A stretch of DNA of 64,000 nt from Nonomuraea gerenzanensis. GTDB taxonomy: Bacteria; Actinomycetota; Actinomycetes; Streptosporangiales; Streptosporangiaceae. Below, piece after piece: positions 49,571 to 58,103 of this stretch. Position numbers and translations under genes: made by a program. Location of the stretch: the NCBI RefSeq assembly GCF_020215645.1, contig NZ_CP084058.1, forward strand, positions 3,782,001-3,846,000, written 5' to 3'. A model generated the notes under the pieces. That model had not been told where the DNA came from. It ran no database searches and saw only the letters and a program-made list of their open reading frames with translations. How positions within the stretch are numbered: the stretch's first letter is position 1; each line of letters starts with the position of its first letter.

Positions 49571-50443
49571 ATGCCGCTGACGCCCGCTGATGTGCGGAAC
49601 AAGCAGTTCAGTACCACCCGGCTCCGGCCGGGCTACGACGAGGAAGAGGTCGACGCCTTCCTCGACGAGGTGGAGGCTGAGCTCGACCGCCTGATCCAAG
49701 AGAACGAGGAGCTCCGCGCCAAGCTGGCCGAGTGCCTGCGTGGGAAGGTGCCGGGCGGCATGAACATGCCCATGGCCTCCGCCCCGGTCCAGGAGCAGCC
49801 CAAGCCCGAGATGATGGCGCCGCAGCCGGAGCCCATGCGGGCCCCCGAGCCGCCGCCGGTGCAGCAGCAGCCCGTCCCCGTGGCCATGAACATGCCTCCC
49901 GCCGAGGACAACATGGACACCGCGGCCCGCGTGCTCGCGCTCGCCCAGCAGACCGCCGACCAGGCGATCGCCGACGCCCGCCGGGAGGCGGACGAGACGG
50001 TCACCCGCGCCCGCCGCGAGGCCGACGAGATCCTCACCAAGGCCCGCCGCCAGGCCGAGCAGGTCATCGGCGACGCCCGTGCCCGCGCCGAGACGCTCGA
50101 GCGCGACGCGCAGGAGCGCCACCGCCAGGCCATGGGCTCGCTGGTGCAGACCCGCGACGAGCTCGAGCGCAAGGTCGAGGAGCTGCGCAGCTTCGAGCGC
50201 GAGTACCGCAGCCGCCTCAAGCTCTACCTGGAGAACCAGCTCGCCGAGCTCAACGTCTCCGCAGAGGGCAGCGGTGGGTTCCCGGTGATGTCCGGTGGTC
50301 CGCAGGGTCAGGCTCCCGCCATGTCGCACGCCGTGCCTCAGGGTGGCCAGCAGCCTCTTCCCGGTGGTCCGAGCCCGTTCGGTGGCGAGGCTCCGCAGGG
50401 CGCCTTCCCCGGCGGTGACGGTCCGCACAACGACCGCCGGTAA
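49571..50443 (+). CDS. divIVA: DivIVA/Wag31 polar growth protein
   Basis: DivIVA marks negatively curved membrane at poles and septa and organises tip growth in actinobacteria. The 290-residue protein has the lipid-binding N domain (MPLTPADVRNKQFSTTRL, then FLDEVEAELDRLIQENEEL), a Pro/Gln/Met-rich linker (about 58-115), a long coiled coil (about 118-225, with ARREADETVTRARREADEI) and a Gly/Gln-rich tail. ATG 49571 follows AAGGAG. No terminator is evident before the next gene, which starts 41 bases later. Confidence 0.94.
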   Translation: MPLTPADVRNKQFSTTRLRPGYDEEEVDAFLDEVEAELDRLIQENEELRAKLAECLRGKVPGGMNMPMASAPVQEQPKPEMMAPQPEPMRAPEPPPVQQQPVPVAMNMPPAEDNMDTAARVLALAQQTADQAIADARREADETVTRARREADEILTKARRQAEQVIGDARARAETLERDAQERHRQAMGSLVQTRDELERKVEELRSFEREYRSRLKLYLENQLAELNVSAEGSGGFPVMSGGPQGQAPAMSHAVPQGGQQPLPGGPSPFGGEAPQGAFPGGDGPHNDRR

Positions 50444-50484: not shown

Positions 50485-52491
50485 GTGATCCTTATCAGTG
50501 CTGGTTTGGTGCTCGCGGCAGTGGTTCTGCTGATCGCGGGCTTCGTACTGGCGAAGCCGTTCCTGATCATGTGGTCCATCGTGGTCAGCGTGTTGTCCGC
50601 GCTGTTCCTGGTGATCGGGGCGTTCCTGCGGCGGAACGAGCTTTTTCCCGGAGGTGGGCAGGCCGCTGCGCCGGCCACCCCCCCGAAGGGGCTCATGCCG
50701 TCCGCGCCGCCGTACAACCAGACCGGTCCGATGGTTCACCAGCAGCACCCGCAGCCCCGGCCGCAGCCTCAGGCGCATCCCCACGCGCCGCAGCGGACGG
50801 CGACCGCACCGGGCCCCGCTCCGCGCCGGCCCGCGCCGACCGGCATCGCGCCGGATGCGATCGTGCTGGTGATCCCCGGGCGCAAGCGCTACCACGTGCC
50901 CGGCTGCAGGCAGCTGATCGGCAGGGATCACGAGGAGCTCACCTACGAGGAGGCGCGCGAGGAGGGCTTCACGCCCTGCACCACGTGCCTGCCGGACGCA
51001 GCGCTCGGCGGACGGCAACTGCCGCCTGCCGCCGACCCCGAGCCCGCCGTCACCCCGGGTCCCGCCGCCGACGTTCCCGCGGCGAGCCGGGCCGAGAGCT
51101 CCGAGCAGACCCGCGACGTACGTCCGCCGGTCGCCCCGCCGAAGTCCGACACGAAGGCTTCCACCCCCAGCCCGGAGTCCGCCGCCTCCCACGAGGAGGA
51201 AGGCGCCACCGGGTGGTTCGGCCGCCCTGCCGCCGCTCCGGCGAGCCAGGCCAAGGCCCCCTCCTCCGCCTCCCCCGAGCCCGGCTCGGATGACGAGCAG
51301 GCGGACGACTCACAGACTTCCTTCTTCCGGCCGCCGCCCTTCGCGCGCAAGACCGAGTCCTCCTCCGCCCCCGGCACGGGCGAGCCCTCCGCCGACGAGA
51401 CCGGCACGTCCCCGGCCAACGCCAGGCCGGTGGGTCCGGTGGGTCCGGTGGGCAAGACGCCGCGTCCCGCGTCCGCGAGCAGCCCCGAGCAGCCCGGCGG
51501 GAAGCCGGGCACCACGCCCGAGGCCCGGCCGGGGGGTCCTGGCACGAAGCCCGAGGGTAGGCCGGGCGGTTCCGGCACGAAGCCCGACACCAGGCCCGGG
51601 CAGGCCGACGGCACCTCCGAGCGCCCTGGGCGGCCGGACGCGGGTGCGGCGGCAGGTCAGGCTGGTGATCGGCCCGGCCAGGCGACCGGGCCTTCGGCGG
51701 GCCGGACGGCTGGTCAGGCGGAGGGCCGACCGGCTGGTCAGACGACCGCCTCGCCCGAGCAGGCCGGTGGTAAGAGCGGGCAGGCCGGTGGCAAGGCTGG
51801 GGAAGCAGCCGCCAGGCCTGGGGAGGCTGGGGGTAAGCCCGGGCAGAGCGGGGCCGAGCCGCAGACCTCTGAGACGTCCGCCGGCAAGGGCGGGCAGGCG
51901 GGTGGCAAGCCGGGTGTGGCTGCCAGGCGGGTCGAGGACGATGACGTGTCGGGGCCCGACACGGCGCCGCAGCCGCGGGTGACCGCGTCCGGGCTGCCGG
52001 CCGAGCCGTCGGGTGGATCCGCCGAGCGTCCGTCCGGCCCCGCCGGCGAGCCGCCCTCGTCCGGTGAGACCGTGATCCTGCACGAGCGGCCCGCGTCCTC
52101 GGCCGAGTCGACGGCCAAGCCCAAGGGGCCGCTGCCTCCTGGCGCTCCGGCCCGGCCGTCGGCCGCCAAGCCGGCTGCCGTACCGGGGAAGACCACCTCC
52201 GAGCGTCCGCCCGCGCCCAAGGCGGGGGTCGCCAAGGGGGAGCCGCCGAAGGGCGCCGAGAGCGGCGCTGCGGGTAGGGCCGGTGACGCGCCCGGCAAGG
52301 GCGGCGGTAAGGGGGCAGGGGAGAGCACGGTGAAGGTCATCGTGGGCACCCGCCGCTACCACAGTACCGCCTGCCCGTTGATCAGGGGCGCGGGGGAGAC
52401 CGGCGTGGAGACGATGACGCTCGCCGCGGCTGAGGCGGCCGGGCTGACGAGTTGCTCGGTGTGCCAGCATGACCGGGAGACGGTCGGCTGA
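50485..52491 (+). CDS. Membrane protein with two Ada-like zinc modules and a giant linker
   Basis: I cannot give a function. The 668-residue protein starts with two membrane helices (residues about 3-25 and 28-50). A first small module has RYHVPGC...GFTPCTTCLPD with H137-x3-C141 and C165-x2-C168. About 450 residues of Pro/Gly/Ala/Glu-rich sequence with many GGKPG and RPGQA units follow. A second copy closes the protein: RYHSTACPLI...GLTSCSVC with H626-x3-C630 and C657-x2-C660. The HxxxC...EA...G...CxxC pattern resembles the zinc-binding domain of Ada and nuclease-associated relatives. GTG 50485, 41 bases after divIVA, suggests co-expression with the tip-growth protein. A clear terminator follows. 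Confidence 0.8.
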   Translation: MILISAGLVLAAVVLLIAGFVLAKPFLIMWSIVVSVLSALFLVIGAFLRRNELFPGGGQAAAPATPPKGLMPSAPPYNQTGPMVHQQHPQPRPQPQAHPHAPQRTATAPGPAPRRPAPTGIAPDAIVLVIPGRKRYHVPGCRQLIGRDHEELTYEEAREEGFTPCTTCLPDAALGGRQLPPAADPEPAVTPGPAADVPAASRAESSEQTRDVRPPVAPPKSDTKASTPSPESAASHEEEGATGWFGRPAAAPASQAKAPSSASPEPGSDDEQADDSQTSFFRPPPFARKTESSSAPGTGEPSADETGTSPANARPVGPVGPVGKTPRPASASSPEQPGGKPGTTPEARPGGPGTKPEGRPGGSGTKPDTRPGQADGTSERPGRPDAGAAAGQAGDRPGQATGPSAGRTAGQAEGRPAGQTTASPEQAGGKSGQAGGKAGEAAARPGEAGGKPGQSGAEPQTSETSAGKGGQAGGKPGVAARRVEDDDVSGPDTAPQPRVTASGLPAEPSGGSAERPSGPAGEPPSSGETVILHERPASSAESTAKPKGPLPPGAPARPSAAKPAAVPGKTTSERPPAPKAGVAKGEPPKGAESGAAGRAGDAPGKGGGKGAGESTVKVIVGTRRYHSTACPLIRGAGETGVETMTLAAAEAAGLTSCSVCQHDRETVG

Positions 52492-52605: not shown

Positions 52606-52750
52606 TGTCATGCGGGCGGGCGCGCCGGCCAGGGCCCAAGGTGCGGCGGTTGACGTCCGGGATGGCGGCGGGTAACGTGCCCCACCCCTAGCGACGCTTC
52701 TGGAGCTGCGGGTGGGGTTTCGCACCCACCGGCTCTCTGGAGGCTCCCCG

Positions 52751-54058
52751 ATGACTTCCGGCTCGCCGCTCAGGCGGCGCGACTTCCGGCTGCTCCTGTT
52801 CGGACAGACCACCACCCAACTCGGTACGCAGGTCAGCGGTGTGGCGATCCCGCTGCTGGCCGTCGTCACCCTCGATGCCTCACCCCTGCAACTGGGCCTG
52901 GTCACGGCGGCAGGAACGATCGCCTTCGCGCTGATCGGCCTGCCCGCGGGCGTCTGGATCGACCGGTGGCGGCGCCGCCCCGTGCTCGTCGCGGCCGATC
53001 TGGCGCGGGCGGTGCTGCTGGCCACGATCCCGCTGGCCGCCCTGCTCGGGACGCTGACCATCGCGCAGCTCGTCGTCGTGTCGCTGCTGGCCGGCCTCGC
53101 CAGGGTCTTCTTCGACGTCGGCTACCAGAGCTACCTGCCGTCCGTCGTCGGGCGGGGCGAGCTGATCGCGGGGAACTCGGCGATGGAGAGCATCCGCGCC
53201 TGCGGTCAGGTGGCCGGGCCCGGTGTCGGAGGCTGGGCCGTCACCGTGCTCGGCTCCGCGAACGTCGTCCTCGTCCAGGCCGTCACGTTCGCCGTCTCGG
53301 CCGCTTCGCTGCTGGCCATCAGGGCTCCCGAACCGTCTCCGAACCCGAGGCCGGGCTCGGGAGTGCCGGGGGCGGGGCGGGGTGCGGAGACTGCGGACTC
53401 CGGGGCCGGGCGGCGGTCGCGCGGCCTGGTGGCGGAGATCGGGGAAGGGCTGGCGTTCGTGACCGGGAGCAGGGTGTTGCGGGCGACGACGATCACCAGC
53501 GCGGCCGGCAACCTGGCCTTCGCGATCGCCTCGGCCGCGAGCTTCCCCTTCATGATCCACACCCTCGGCCTCACCCCCACCGGGATCGGCCTGGTGCTGG
53601 CGGCCGGTTCGCCGGCCGCCCTGGCGGGCGCGGCCCTGACGCCGCGCCTGGCCCGCCGAATCGGCTCCGCCCGGGTCATCTGGCTGTCCCTGGCCGTGAC
53701 GGGCCCTGTGGCGATGCTGAGCCCCCTGGCAGGGCCAGGATGGGGAGTGGGGCTGTTCGTGTTCGGTACGGCCGTGGGCGAGCTGGGTCAGATCGTGTAC
53801 GCCGTCACGAACGTGAGCCTGCGCCAGCGCCTGTGCCCCGAGCACATGCTCGGCCGGGTCAACGCCACCGTGCGCTGGCTCATGATGGGCCTGTTCCCGC
53901 TGGGCGCCCTGCTGGGAGGGATCCTCGGGGAGGCGGCCGGGCCGCGGCCGGCGCTCTGGGCGGCCGCTGTGGTCATCGTCCTGTCACCGCTGCCCGCGTA
54001 CGCGGCCCTGCGCGGGATCCGCGAGGCGGGGGACGTCCCGCTCGTGACGTCGCCGTAG
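52751..54058 (+). CDS. MFS transporter (multidrug-efflux-like)
   Basis: The 435-residue protein has 12 membrane helices and the pattern of the MFS_3/enterobactin-exporter-like group: RRRDFRLLLFGQTTTQLGTQVSGVAIPLLAV at the N terminus (bases 52775-52867), the loop GVWIDRWRRRPVLVAADLARA, and SYLPSVVGRGELIAGNSAMESIR. Relatives export drugs or siderophores; the substrate is unknown. ATG 52751 follows GGAGG at 8 bases. It lies between the division cluster and ileS, which is not the usual actinobacterial order, so it is probably a lineage-specific insertion. A perfect hairpin includes its stop codon. Confidence 0.88.
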   Translation: MTSGSPLRRRDFRLLLFGQTTTQLGTQVSGVAIPLLAVVTLDASPLQLGLVTAAGTIAFALIGLPAGVWIDRWRRRPVLVAADLARAVLLATIPLAALLGTLTIAQLVVVSLLAGLARVFFDVGYQSYLPSVVGRGELIAGNSAMESIRACGQVAGPGVGGWAVTVLGSANVVLVQAVTFAVSAASLLAIRAPEPSPNPRPGSGVPGAGRGAETADSGAGRRSRGLVAEIGEGLAFVTGSRVLRATTITSAAGNLAFAIASAASFPFMIHTLGLTPTGIGLVLAAGSPAALAGAALTPRLARRIGSARVIWLSLAVTGPVAMLSPLAGPGWGVGLFVFGTAVGELGQIVYAVTNVSLRQRLCPEHMLGRVNATVRWLMMGLFPLGALLGGILGEAAGPRPALWAAAVVIVLSPLPAYAALRGIREAGDVPLVTSP

Positions 54059-54096: not shown

Positions 54097-57000
54097 TCAG
54101 GCGCGGCGGAGCTGGAAGGTGAGGCCGAGGTCGGCGTCCGAGTGGGACGGCAGGTCCGCGGCGGTGCCCTCCGTGATGGTGGTGGCCAGCACGTCCTCGC
54201 CCACCACGTGCCCCTCCGAGCGCAGCGCCGTGGCCAGGTCGTCGGACGTGGCGGTCCACCACAGCTCGATGCGGTCGGTGATCGACAGGCCGCTCGACTT
54301 GCGGGCCTCCTGCACCAGGCGGATGACCTCGCGCAGCAGGCCGGCGCGGCGCAGCTCGTCGGTCAGCTCCAGGTCGAGCGCGACGGTCTCGCCCGTGCCG
54401 GTGCCGATGGCGCCCGTCTCGACCGCCCAGCCCGAGCGGGGCTGCTCGTTGACGATCACCTCGTCCGGGCCGAGCATGACCTCGCCGAGCGAGTCCGCCT
54501 CCACCATGACCGTGGCGCCCGAGCGCAGGGCCCTGGCGACGCGGGTGGCATCGGCGGCGGTCACGGCGGCGGCCACGAGCTTGGTCTGCGAGCCGAAGCG
54601 CTTGCCCAGGGCGCGGAAGTTCGGCTTGACCGTGTAGGACACGAGGTCGGCGCTGAAGCCGGACATGTCCTCCAGGGTCTGCACGTTCAGCTCGTCGGCC
54701 ACCAGGCCGCGCAGCTCGCCGGGGAGCGACGGCCAGCCGTGCGCGCCGACCAGGGCCCGCCGCAGCGGCTGGCGGGTCTTGACGCCCGAGGAGGCGCGGG
54801 CCGAGCGGCCCAGCTCCACCAGGCGCCGCACGAGGGCCATCTGGTCCGACAGCGCCGGGTTGAGCAGGTCCTCGCGCACCTCCGGCCAGCCGGTCAGGTG
54901 GACGGAGGAGGGCGCGTCGGCCGAGCGCAGGACGTCCCACAGGTAGTCGGTGACGAACGGCGTGATGGGCGCCATCAGCCGCAGCACCGTCTCCAGGCAC
55001 TCGTACAGGGTCGCGAAGGCGTCCTGCGAGCCCTGCCAGAAGCGGCGGCGGGAGCGGCGGACGTACCAGTTGGACAGGTCGTCGAGGAAGTCGGCCAGGC
55101 GGCGGCCGGCGCGCTGGGTGTCGTACTCGTCGAGCGCCGTCGTGACCTCGGCCACCGTGCGGTGCAGCTCCGCCAGCGCCCAGCGGTCGAGCAGCGGGCG
55201 CTGCGCGGCCGGGGCGGCCTCGGCGAGCATGGCCGGCGACCAGGACTCGGCGTTGGCGTAGAGGGTGAAGAACGACGAGGTGTTCCAGAGCGTCAGCAGG
55301 ACCTTGCGGACGATCTCCTCCAGCGTGCCGTGACCCACCCGGCGGGCCGCCCACGGCGAGCCGGAGCAGGCCATGAACCAGCGCAGCGCGTCGGCCCCGT
55401 GCTGGTCCATCAGCGGGATCGGCTCCAGGATGTTGCCCAGGTGCTTGCTCATCTTGCGGCCGTCCTCGGCCAGGATGAGGCCGAGGCAGAGCACGTTCTG
55501 GTAGGAGGACTGGCCGAAGACCAGCGTGCCGACGGCCATCAGCGAGTAGAACCAGCCGCGCGTCTGGTCGGTGGCCTCGCAGATGAAGTCGGCCGGGTAG
55601 ACGCCCTCGGGCCTGCCGCGCTCGCCCCACTGGGCGAACGGCATGGAGCCGGAGTCGTACCAGGCGTCGATGACGTCGGGCACGCGGGTGGCCAGGGCGC
55701 CACACGACGGGCAGTCGAAGGTGACGTCGTCGACGTACGGGCGGTGCGGGTCGAGCGCGGAGACGTCCTGGCCGGCGAGCGTGCCGAGCTCCTCCAGCGA
55801 CCCGACGCAGGTCACGTGCGACTCGTCCTGCGAGCACACCCACAGCGGCAGCGGCGTGCCCCAGTAGCGCGAGCGCGACAGCGACCAGTCGACGTTGCCG
55901 CGCAGCCACTCGCCGAACCGGCCCCACTTGATCGTGTCGGGGAACCAGTTGGTCTTGGAGTTCTCCGCCAGCATCTGGTCCTTGACCGCGGTGGTGCGGA
56001 TGTACCAGGAGGGCAGGGCGTAGTAGAGCAGCGCCGTGTGGCAGCGCCAGCAGTGCGGGTAGCTGTGCTCCATGTGGCCGCCGCGGTAGAGCAGGCCACG
56101 CGCCCGCAGGTCCTCGGTCAGCTCCTCGTCGGCGTCCTTGAAGAACCTGCCGCCGACCATGGGCACGTCGTCGAGGAAGCGGCCGTCGGGGCCGATCGGG
56201 TTGACGACCGGCATGCCGTACTTCTTGATCACGGTCATGTCCTCGGCGCCGAAGGCGGGCGCCTGGTGGACCAGGCCGGTGCCGTCCTCGATCGTGACGT
56301 AGTCGCCGAGCACGACGTAGTGCGCGCCGGGGATGTCGACGAGGTCGAACGGGCGGGTGTAGGTGGTGTGCTCCAGCTCGCGGCCGGTGAAGCGGGCCAC
56401 CTCGGTGGCGCCCTCGCCGAGCACCGACAGCAGGGGCTCGGCCACGACCAGGACCTCGCCGTCGGCGGTGCGGGCCGCGACGTAGGTGACGTCGGGGTGC
56501 ACGGCGACGGCCGTGTTGGAGACGAGGGTCCAGGGCGTGGTGGTCCAGATGAGCAGGGCCGCGCCCAGCTCGGCCAGCGGGCCGGAGGTCGCGGGCATGC
56601 GGACGTAGACCGACGGGCTGGAGACCGTCTCGTACGCGCCCGGCTGGCCCAGCTCGTGGTCGGACAGCCCGGTGCCGCAGCGCGGGCAGTAGGGCGTGAT
56701 CCGGAAGTCGCGGAACAGCAGCCCCTTGTCGAAGATGACCTTCAGCGACCACCACACGGACTCGACGTAGGACGGGTCCATGGTCCGGTACGCCTGGGAC
56801 AGGTCGATCCAGTAGCCCATCCGCTCGGTCATCTGCTCGAACGCGTCGACGTGCCGCAGCACCGACTCGCGGCACTTGGCGTTGAACTCGGCGATGCCGT
56901 ACGTCTCGATGTCGCGCTTGCCCGACAGGCCCAGCTCGCGCTCGACGCCGACCTCGACGGGCAGGCCGTGGCAGTCCCAGCCGGCCTTGCGGGGCACGCT

Positions 57001-57243
57001 GAAGCCGCGCATCGACTTGTAGCGCGGGAACAGGTCCTTGAACACGCGCGCCTCGACATGGTGCACGCCGGGCAGGCCGTTGGCGGTGGGCGGGCCCTCG
57101 TAGAACACCCAGGCGGGGTTGCCCGCGTTCTGCTCGACGGAGCGCTCGAAGATCTTCCCGTCCCGCCAGCGGTCGAGGACCTCGCGCTCGAGCGCGGGCA
57201 GGTCGACCTGCGCGGGAAGAGAGCGGAATGATGGGGAAGACAT
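54097..57243 (-). CDS. ileS: Isoleucyl-tRNA synthetase, IleRS2 type, with swapped HIGH motif
   Basis: IleRS charges tRNA-Ile. The 1048-residue protein is of the eukaryote-like type 2: PPTANGLPGVHHVEARVFKDL, the editing domain, KMSK in DGRKMSKHLGN, and the long anticodon-binding C terminus with the closing beta domain LEDMSGFSADLVSYTVKPNF. The class I signature, normally HxGH, reads G59-V60-H61-H62, with first and third residues exchanged. Such GXHH variants of IleRS2 have been described and linked to very high mupirocin resistance. ATG 57243 is chosen (GTG 57261 alternative). A T-box lies directly upstream. Orientation is opposite to divIVA and lspA. Confidence 0.95.
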   Translation of the reverse strand: MSSPSFRSLPAQVDLPALEREVLDRWRDGKIFERSVEQNAGNPAWVFYEGPPTANGLPGVHHVEARVFKDLFPRYKSMRGFSVPRKAGWDCHGLPVEVGVERELGLSGKRDIETYGIAEFNAKCRESVLRHVDAFEQMTERMGYWIDLSQAYRTMDPSYVESVWWSLKVIFDKGLLFRDFRITPYCPRCGTGLSDHELGQPGAYETVSSPSVYVRMPATSGPLAELGAALLIWTTTPWTLVSNTAVAVHPDVTYVAARTADGEVLVVAEPLLSVLGEGATEVARFTGRELEHTTYTRPFDLVDIPGAHYVVLGDYVTIEDGTGLVHQAPAFGAEDMTVIKKYGMPVVNPIGPDGRFLDDVPMVGGRFFKDADEELTEDLRARGLLYRGGHMEHSYPHCWRCHTALLYYALPSWYIRTTAVKDQMLAENSKTNWFPDTIKWGRFGEWLRGNVDWSLSRSRYWGTPLPLWVCSQDESHVTCVGSLEELGTLAGQDVSALDPHRPYVDDVTFDCPSCGALATRVPDVIDAWYDSGSMPFAQWGERGRPEGVYPADFICEATDQTRGWFYSLMAVGTLVFGQSSYQNVLCLGLILAEDGRKMSKHLGNILEPIPLMDQHGADALRWFMACSGSPWAARRVGHGTLEEIVRKVLLTLWNTSSFFTLYANAESWSPAMLAEAAPAAQRPLLDRWALAELHRTVAEVTTALDEYDTQRAGRRLADFLDDLSNWYVRRSRRRFWQGSQDAFATLYECLETVLRLMAPITPFVTDYLWDVLRSADAPSSVHLTGWPEVREDLLNPALSDQMALVRRLVELGRSARASSGVKTRQPLRRALVGAHGWPSLPGELRGLVADELNVQTLEDMSGFSADLVSYTVKPNFRALGKRFGSQTKLVAAAVTAADATRVARALRSGATVMVEADSLGEVMLGPDEVIVNEQPRSGWAVETGAIGTGTGETVALDLELTDELRRAGLLREVIRLVQEARKSSGLSITDRIELWWTATSDDLATALRSEGHVVGEDVLATTITEGTAADLPSHSDADLGLTFQLRRA

Positions 57244-57470
57244 CTCGGGCGGGACCTCCACGCTTGATCGGCCGGTTGGCTGGACGCGTGAAGGGACGAA
57301 GCCTGGCGGCTCCGCGGTACCACCCTTCTTGACCCCGCGCGTGGCGGAGCCCTCTTCATTTGGTCTGCTGCCGGGTCTAATGAGCTCGCGAGAGCCGTTC
57401 TTCCGGCGGCTCCGGGGTGATATCCCTCACAGTCGGGCCCCATCAACGCCTTGCAGTCTCAAACCATAAC
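57244..57470 (-). promoter_or_regulatory. T-box leader of ileS (isoleucine)
   Basis: On the minus strand the leader contains the T-box core AAGGGTGGTACCGCGG (57312-57327), which pairs with the free CCA end of uncharged tRNA. A stem with GGGATATCACCCC upstream includes the isoleucine specifier ATC at 57419-57421. Actinobacterial ileS T-boxes are known to control translation. No T-run terminator is present here, and GGAGG just before the start would be the target. TATGGT at 57463-57468 is a plausible -10 box. It predicts induction when Ile-tRNA is uncharged. Confidence 0.9.
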
Positions 57471-57713
57471 GCAGAGTGGGGGCGAAGGCTTCCTTGTTTT
57501 CCTGGTGGCGTCCGCCCACCCGGCGAGCCCCGCCGGTACGCAAGTCGTAAACGGCGCAAAGTTGTGGGAATGGACGCCCCCGGGGAGGAGTTGAATGCGC
57601 GAGGCGGGATAGTACGGGGGAGGTAAACCGTCCGGCGGGTCGTTTGCCGTTCCGTTATATGGATCCTAAGCTGCCCGCACCATTTACGGCCTTGATCAGC
57701 AATGGAGGCAGCC
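57471..57713 (+). other. Spacer between ileS leader and DksA-like gene
   Basis: About 240 bases without a convincing gene. It must contain the divergent promoter of the DksA-like gene. TATATGGAT at 57656-57664 is an A/T-rich -10 candidate, but no good -35 partner was found. Several short frames here have no ribosome site. Confidence 0.35.
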
Positions 57714-58103
57714 ATGGCGGCAGTCACGCAGACCGCTACACCGTCGATGTGGTCGGACGAGGAGCTGGCCGAGGTACGCGGCAGGCTCCAGGAGGAGATC
57801 GACGAGCTCGAGGCGGACATCCTCCGCCACGAGTCCGAGATAGCCTCTGGAGACGTGACCCAGGGCGCCGGCGACGACCAGGCCGACGCCGGCGCCAAGA
57901 CGTACGAGCGCGAACGCGAGATCGCCCTTACCCTGAATGCGCGCGATCTGGTCGCGCAGAACGAACGTGCGATCGCCAGGATCGACGCAGGGACCTATGG
58001 AGTGTGCGAATCGTGCCACAAGCCGATCGGCAAGGAACGCCTCCAGGCGTTCCCGAGGGCGACGCTGTGCGTGGCCTGCAAGCAGAGGGAGGAACGCCGG
58101 TAA
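57714..58103 (+). CDS. DksA/TraR-family zinc-finger protein
   Basis: The 129-residue protein has a coiled-coil part (WSDEELAEVRGRLQEEIDEL), an acidic tip with DDQADAG and a C4 zinc finger, C98-x2-C101-x17-C119-x2-C122. DksA-type proteins bind the secondary channel of RNA polymerase and adjust transcription, often with ppGpp; the tip Asp residues fit. ATG 57714 follows GGAGG at 5 bases; ATG 57702 is in frame. Its order before lspA and rluD is conserved in actinobacteria. Whether it acts like DksA here is untested. Confidence 0.88.
   Translation: MAAVTQTATPSMWSDEELAEVRGRLQEEIDELEADILRHESEIASGDVTQGAGDDQADAGAKTYEREREIALTLNARDLVAQNERAIARIDAGTYGVCESCHKPIGKERLQAFPRATLCVACKQREERR

Follow-up and report, generated by a model that had tools for sequence, protein, structure and literature searches.

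The window analysed here, a 64,000-nucleotide stretch of DNA from Nonomuraea gerenzanensis, carries on its minus strand an isoleucyl-tRNA synthetase gene (ileS, 54097..57261) in which the HxGH signature motif is replaced by GVHH (57058..57069, minus strand). This raises the question of whether the substitution is genuine and, if so, whether it marks out this organism or belongs to its lineage. Our analysis indicates that the GVHH swap is real, correctly read, already described, and ordinary for the lineage. We regard it as very probable that ileS encodes a single housekeeping type 2 IleRS of the described G/AXHH form, expected to be active with a mupirocin Ki in the mM range, deeply inherited, and under probable T-box control.

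Codons GGC GTG CAC CAT occupy positions 57058–57069 of the minus strand and specify G-V-H-H, a reading taken from the letters and from homologues. The gene lies inside one open frame of 1109 codons; its product has 1054 amino acids if counted from the GTG at 57261 and 1048 if counted from the more probable start codon, ATG at 57243. Two observations favour that ATG: GGAGG (57255–57259) overlaps the GTG, and the proteins of relatives P0003–P0005 start at MSSPSF (MSSP as at the ATG); counter to this, relative P0002 is recorded from the upstream start. The first glycine of the motif is G65 counted from the GTG and G59 from the ATG, so the initial annotation, which numbered it G59, is valid for the ATG start. 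Against the TIGR00392 profile the protein scores 905.1 bits (curated cut-off, 621.4), which identifies it as an isoleucyl-tRNA synthetase, and in phmmer searches it matches Thermus thermophilus IleRS (PDB 1ile) with an E value of 2.7e-266. Full-length scores of 890 bits for 1ile and 859 for the 1032-residue chain 8c8w, versus 367 for 8c9f, the best-scoring of the 917–921-residue IleRS chains in the PDB comparison, bear out the original assignment to type 2. In the phmmer alignments, the GVHH site stands without gaps opposite HVGH of 1ile and opposite GVHH of 8c8w, which we take, from its chain length and letters, to be the Priestia megaterium (P. megaterium) IleRS2 mutant. The flanks (PPTANGLP before, VEARVFKD after) are likewise gapless to T. 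thermophilus IleRS, and when the protein was scanned for either HxGH or GxHH, GVHH was the single hit, leaving no HxGH elsewhere.

The closest named matches, at 95–96% identity, belong to [Actinomadura] parvosata and to Nonomuraea; for [Actinomadura] parvosata and for Nonomuraea sp. FMUSA5-5 the identity is 96%. Among the 120 nearest homologues in the matches listed, one is truncated before the site, and all 119 that cover it read GVHH. A sequencing error at the motif, which the initial annotation had named as something that would overturn its reading, is excluded by this agreement. That GVHH could be a sequencing or frame artefact is accordingly vanishingly improbable: we found no support for it, and it is contradicted by those 119 homologues and by the position of the gene within a single open frame. 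The partner motif, which had gone unmentioned, is also altered, reading KMSKH rather than KMSKS (55441..55455, minus strand, read from the letters). All 120 nearest listed homologues share it, 118 as KMSKHxGN and two as KMSKHLDN.

With glycine first and histidine third in the HIGH motif, the protein has the sequence hallmark of the G/AXHH IleRS2 named by Brkic et al. in 2023, who counted 86 such enzymes among the 379 IleRS in their tree (PMC10485003); in the open-licence PMC literature, this was the sole report of GXHH in IleRS that we found. The sections of that paper covered here describe the same combination of type 2 architecture, swapped first and third HIGH positions, and wide distribution. 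They make no mention of KMSKH; an alignment of both motifs is given in its Fig. 2b. Deinococcus radiodurans (D. radiodurans) IleRS2, with ALHH, has a mupirocin Ki of 6.6 mM, 823-fold lower after change to HVGH. In the opposite direction, HVGH to GVHH raised the Ki of T. thermophilus IleRS2 from 0.20 to 35 µM and that of P. megaterium IleRS2 from 1.08 to 460 µM, at some cost in activity (PMC10485003). The motif swap lifts the Ki into the mM range and is described as hyper-resistance in vitro (PMC10485003). Crystal structures of P. megaterium IleRS2 place the third-position histidine where the first histidine would be, and a clash of this residue with mupirocin was proposed (PMC10485003). The same paper states that Streptomyces griseus (S. 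griseus) IleRS2 carries the non-canonical motif. The S. griseus enzyme has a mupirocin Ki of 10 mM, is active, rescues mupirocin-inhibited E. coli, and is without tRNA-dependent pre-transfer editing (PMC4861432). It and the Nonomuraea enzyme are both type 2 (eukaryote-like) with the non-canonical motif; six named Streptomyces loci in our data read GAHH and KMSKH.

By analogy, the third-position histidine of the Nonomuraea IleRS would take the place of the first and clash with mupirocin. Because of this replacement and the proposed clash, we would expect an active enzyme with a Ki in the mM range, as in S. griseus and D. radiodurans, and the analogy predicts strong natural mupirocin resistance of the strain. 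The initial annotation had stated that GXHH variants keep activity and give extreme mupirocin resistance. The published data on enzymes with this motif, in the parts covered (PMC10485003, PMC4861432), back that expectation for the present protein, making the interpretation sound and also already in print. What finds no support is that the swap is a striking case, as it is fixed across the organism's IleRS2 lineage and has been in print since 2023. The locus extends a known rule by one case at the genome level; the motif itself is nothing new.

How widely the motif occurs was assessed in two non-random samples, one from a phylum search (296 genomes; 30 loci supplied plus 40 chosen for family spread among the matches listed) and one from a search of the class Actinomycetes (148 genomes; 30 loci supplied plus 60 chosen). 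After three repeats (L100, L101 and L102) were dropped from 160, the Actinomycetota set comprised 157 distinct loci, each typed by whichever of P0001 and P0122 gave it the higher BLAST score; the frame of L073 is broken and yields no HIGH motif, and a single genome with 7% contamination is the source of both L124 and L125. GXHH is carried by 104 of the 128 sampled IleRS2 and HYGH by the other 24. Within the class the figures are 67 GXHH and 23 HYGH (n = 90 sampled), and outside it 37 and 1. We also took named loci from many phyla, the 80 best among at least 590 hits for a Thermus-led alignment (L245 has no readable frame; L206 is the same gene as L119). The 79 readable ones divide into 37 GXHH and 42 HXGH, the former including Streptomyces (GAHH, KMSKH), Chloroflexota and Gammaproteobacteria. 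A record titled Bifidobacterium breve reads GTHH and KMSKH.

Phylogenetically, all 24 HYGH genes form one clade (support 99), every member having KMSKS. The 67 GXHH genes of the class, the Nonomuraea ileS and 12 named loci form another (support 100), which implies that GVHH was inherited and did not arise in a local event. GXHH is ancestral here, an old inherited trait of the lineage. On a FastTree phylogeny of 212 rows, built with the motif letters masked, GXHH needs at least three changes and KMSKH seven, numbers that are soft because long branches meet in the tree, as the program warned.

These data bear on a different account of the motif, in which GVHH is a recent adaptation, of the strain or of its genus, that confers resistance to an inhibitor of IleRS encountered in the niche. 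Such an account can draw on the in vitro hyper-resistance conferred by GXHH (PMC10485003) and on the argument in PMC4861432 that soil actinomycetes may meet mupirocin producers. We nevertheless consider it very unlikely, given that GVHH is fixed in the nearest listed homologues, that sampled GXHH genes span 32 family codes with a fifth-place histidine in the partner motif and 15 with serine, that the tree asks for a minimum of three GXHH changes, and that ileS has ordinary neighbours. Recent inhibitor-driven selection in the strain is not indicated. Under the preferred reading of deep inheritance, the sole housekeeping IleRS of this group is of the form linked to hyper-resistance, and natural insensitivity to mupirocin would therefore be ancestral rather than acquired.

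Whether the two altered motifs are coupled can be judged from the same samples. Among class genes, a fifth-place histidine (KMSKH or RMSKH) accompanies GXHH in 66 of 67 cases, the remaining one having asparagine, and a fifth-place serine accompanies HYGH in 23 of 23. Beyond the class, serine takes that place in 34 of 37 GXHH genes, and KMSKH occurs alongside HIGH in three named Clostridia (L184, L197 and L222). For seven independent pairs differing in KMSKH, GXHH moves the same way in 0.1 on average, and seven pairs are too few to reach significance. Coupling of GXHH and KMSKH thus has no support from the tree, and the class-wide pairing is best read as showing shared descent. A search of the open-licence PMC literature for KMSKH in tRNA synthetases found no report.

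It had been asked whether this is the only ileS copy. A PF00133 search over the whole genome (12.07 Mb in 3 contigs; completeness 100, contamination 2.88) yielded nine matches and no second ileS. The nine correspond to two ValRS, one IleRS, one LeuRS (two pieces), two MetRS (three pieces) and one weak match (E = 1.5e-6); both ValRS were confirmed by NCBIfam, and the LeuRS and MetRS were assigned by eye from the letters. One ValRS, beside the usual one, is of the alt_ValS type (L003:841-3357, on contig C1 near 8.95 Mb; NF000540, 1467 bits). The two MetRS-like genes (L006 and L007), named by eye, are frames of 549 and 603 amino acids.

Around ileS lie genes for DivIVA (49571-50443), an MFS transporter that adjoins it (52712-54058) and a TraR/DksA-like protein (57702-58103, named by eye), together with lspA (signal peptidase II) and a pseudouridine synthase gene. 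The slot defined by DivIVA, TraR/DksA-like, lspA and pseudouridine synthase is common to genomes of another family. A long Pro/Gly-rich frame on the plus strand (50485-52491) contains the short repeats YHVPGC...CTTC and YHSTAC...CSVC; it has a DUF6233 match below threshold and no other.

Copy number and setting also speak to the idea that the gene encodes a self-resistance or biosynthetic IleRS-like enzyme, not the housekeeping one. Enzymes of this kind exist in Streptomyces (PMC12945691), an example being SbzA for SB-203207/SB-203208, which shares with the Nonomuraea protein an IleRS architecture and an actinomycete origin. SbzA differs, according to the parts of that paper covered, in having HYGH and AMSKA, in being an extra copy within the SB-203207/SB-203208 biosynthetic cluster, and in its aminoacyl-transfer role, whereas the Nonomuraea gene reads GVHH and KMSKH, encodes the sole IleRS that the genome search turned up and sits in the conserved ileS slot. 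A single copy in a conserved slot speaks against an acquired or biosynthetic-cluster IleRS, the protein does not have the features of the SbzA type, and we regard a specialised enzyme as very improbable. The mupirocin-resistant IleRS MupA and MupB were likewise rejected, with NF000257 and NF000258 scores of 735 and 741 bits against cut-offs of 1900.

Upstream of ileS, cmscan finds a match to the T-box leader model RF00230 (57289..57455, minus strand), which covers the whole model length at 40.4 bits (E = 2.7e-7), below the gathering score of 93. The matched leader contains the T-box sequence AGGGUGGUACCGCG, and by eye we read in it a putative specifier, AUC, for tRNA-Ile (GAU-AUC-ACC). In the fold predicted for the expression platform, the Shine-Dalgarno sequence GGAGG (57255..57259, minus strand) pairs with CCUUC, whose CCU is also part of the 3' arm of the antisequestrator. 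Since CCU belongs to both, sequestrator and antisequestrator are mutually exclusive, and the predicted structure is that of a translational T-box, with a T-box sequence and an antisequestrator that excludes the hairpin sequestering the Shine-Dalgarno. The fold of the whole leader is no more stable than those of shuffled sequences (z = –0.87). T-box matches accompany ileS at 14 of 24 loci from the class (10/12 and 4/12), with RF00230 scores of 30.8–68 bits in these 14 relatives, again below 93; at the other 10 of the 24 no match was found. Four further loci gave a match at L253, which has an HYGH gene, and none at L250–L252. A 2005 study described translational T-boxes in front of actinobacterial ileS genes (PMC1262725), and they share with this leader the T-box sequence and a hairpin sequestering the ileS Shine-Dalgarno. 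No difference was otherwise seen, and the part of that paper's genome list covered includes no Nonomuraea. A translational T-box probably controls ileS, and it would be predicted to free the ribosome-binding site as uncharged tRNA-Ile accumulates.

Sampled Actinomycetota also include 29 type 1 enzymes, none of them seen in the class Actinomycetes sample. Here the HIGH motif varies in another way: 14 read HXGH, 14 read HXGT, and one is unreadable. The HXGT genes (L014, L017, L019, L023, L024, L030, L032, L035, L036, L054, L059, L065, L070 and L072) span eight sampled families. Of the 120 nearest homologues listed for L019, 65 also read HXGT, among them proteins named Candidatus Aquicultor primus, Dendrosporobacter and a Negativicutes bacterium. 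In the 13 of 14 HXGT genomes checked, there is a single TIGR00392 match each (E ≤1e-100). These type 1 enzymes contradict the Figure 2 legend of PMC10485003, which gives HXGH in all IleRS1; the methods of that paper state that sequences lacking the catalytic motif were removed. Our search of the open-licence PMC literature for HXGT in isoleucyl-tRNA synthetase found no relevant report. We see an even chance that the IleRS HIGH motif is more evolvable than published, with type 1 lineages having HXGT in their only detected IleRS, and with KMSKH remodelling in Actinomycetes possibly tuning editing or the response to inhibitors.

Variation of the motif can also be seen at a single slot. In three genomes of one genus (g10), ileS is flanked by a shared set of neighbours in conserved order, yet the gene is of the GTHH type in G381 (L250) and of the HYGH type in G214 (L251) and G389 (L252). 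Together with the HXGT enzymes, this exchange offers natural comparisons for what the HIGH motif needs. Relative to G381, the neighbours match at 81–85% on one side and at best 77% on the other. The IleRS proteins match at 38% between the GTHH and HYGH types and at 90% between G214 and G389. One type 2 form therefore seems to have been exchanged for the other within a conserved slot; in G381, TIGR00392 gives one match at E ≤1e-100.
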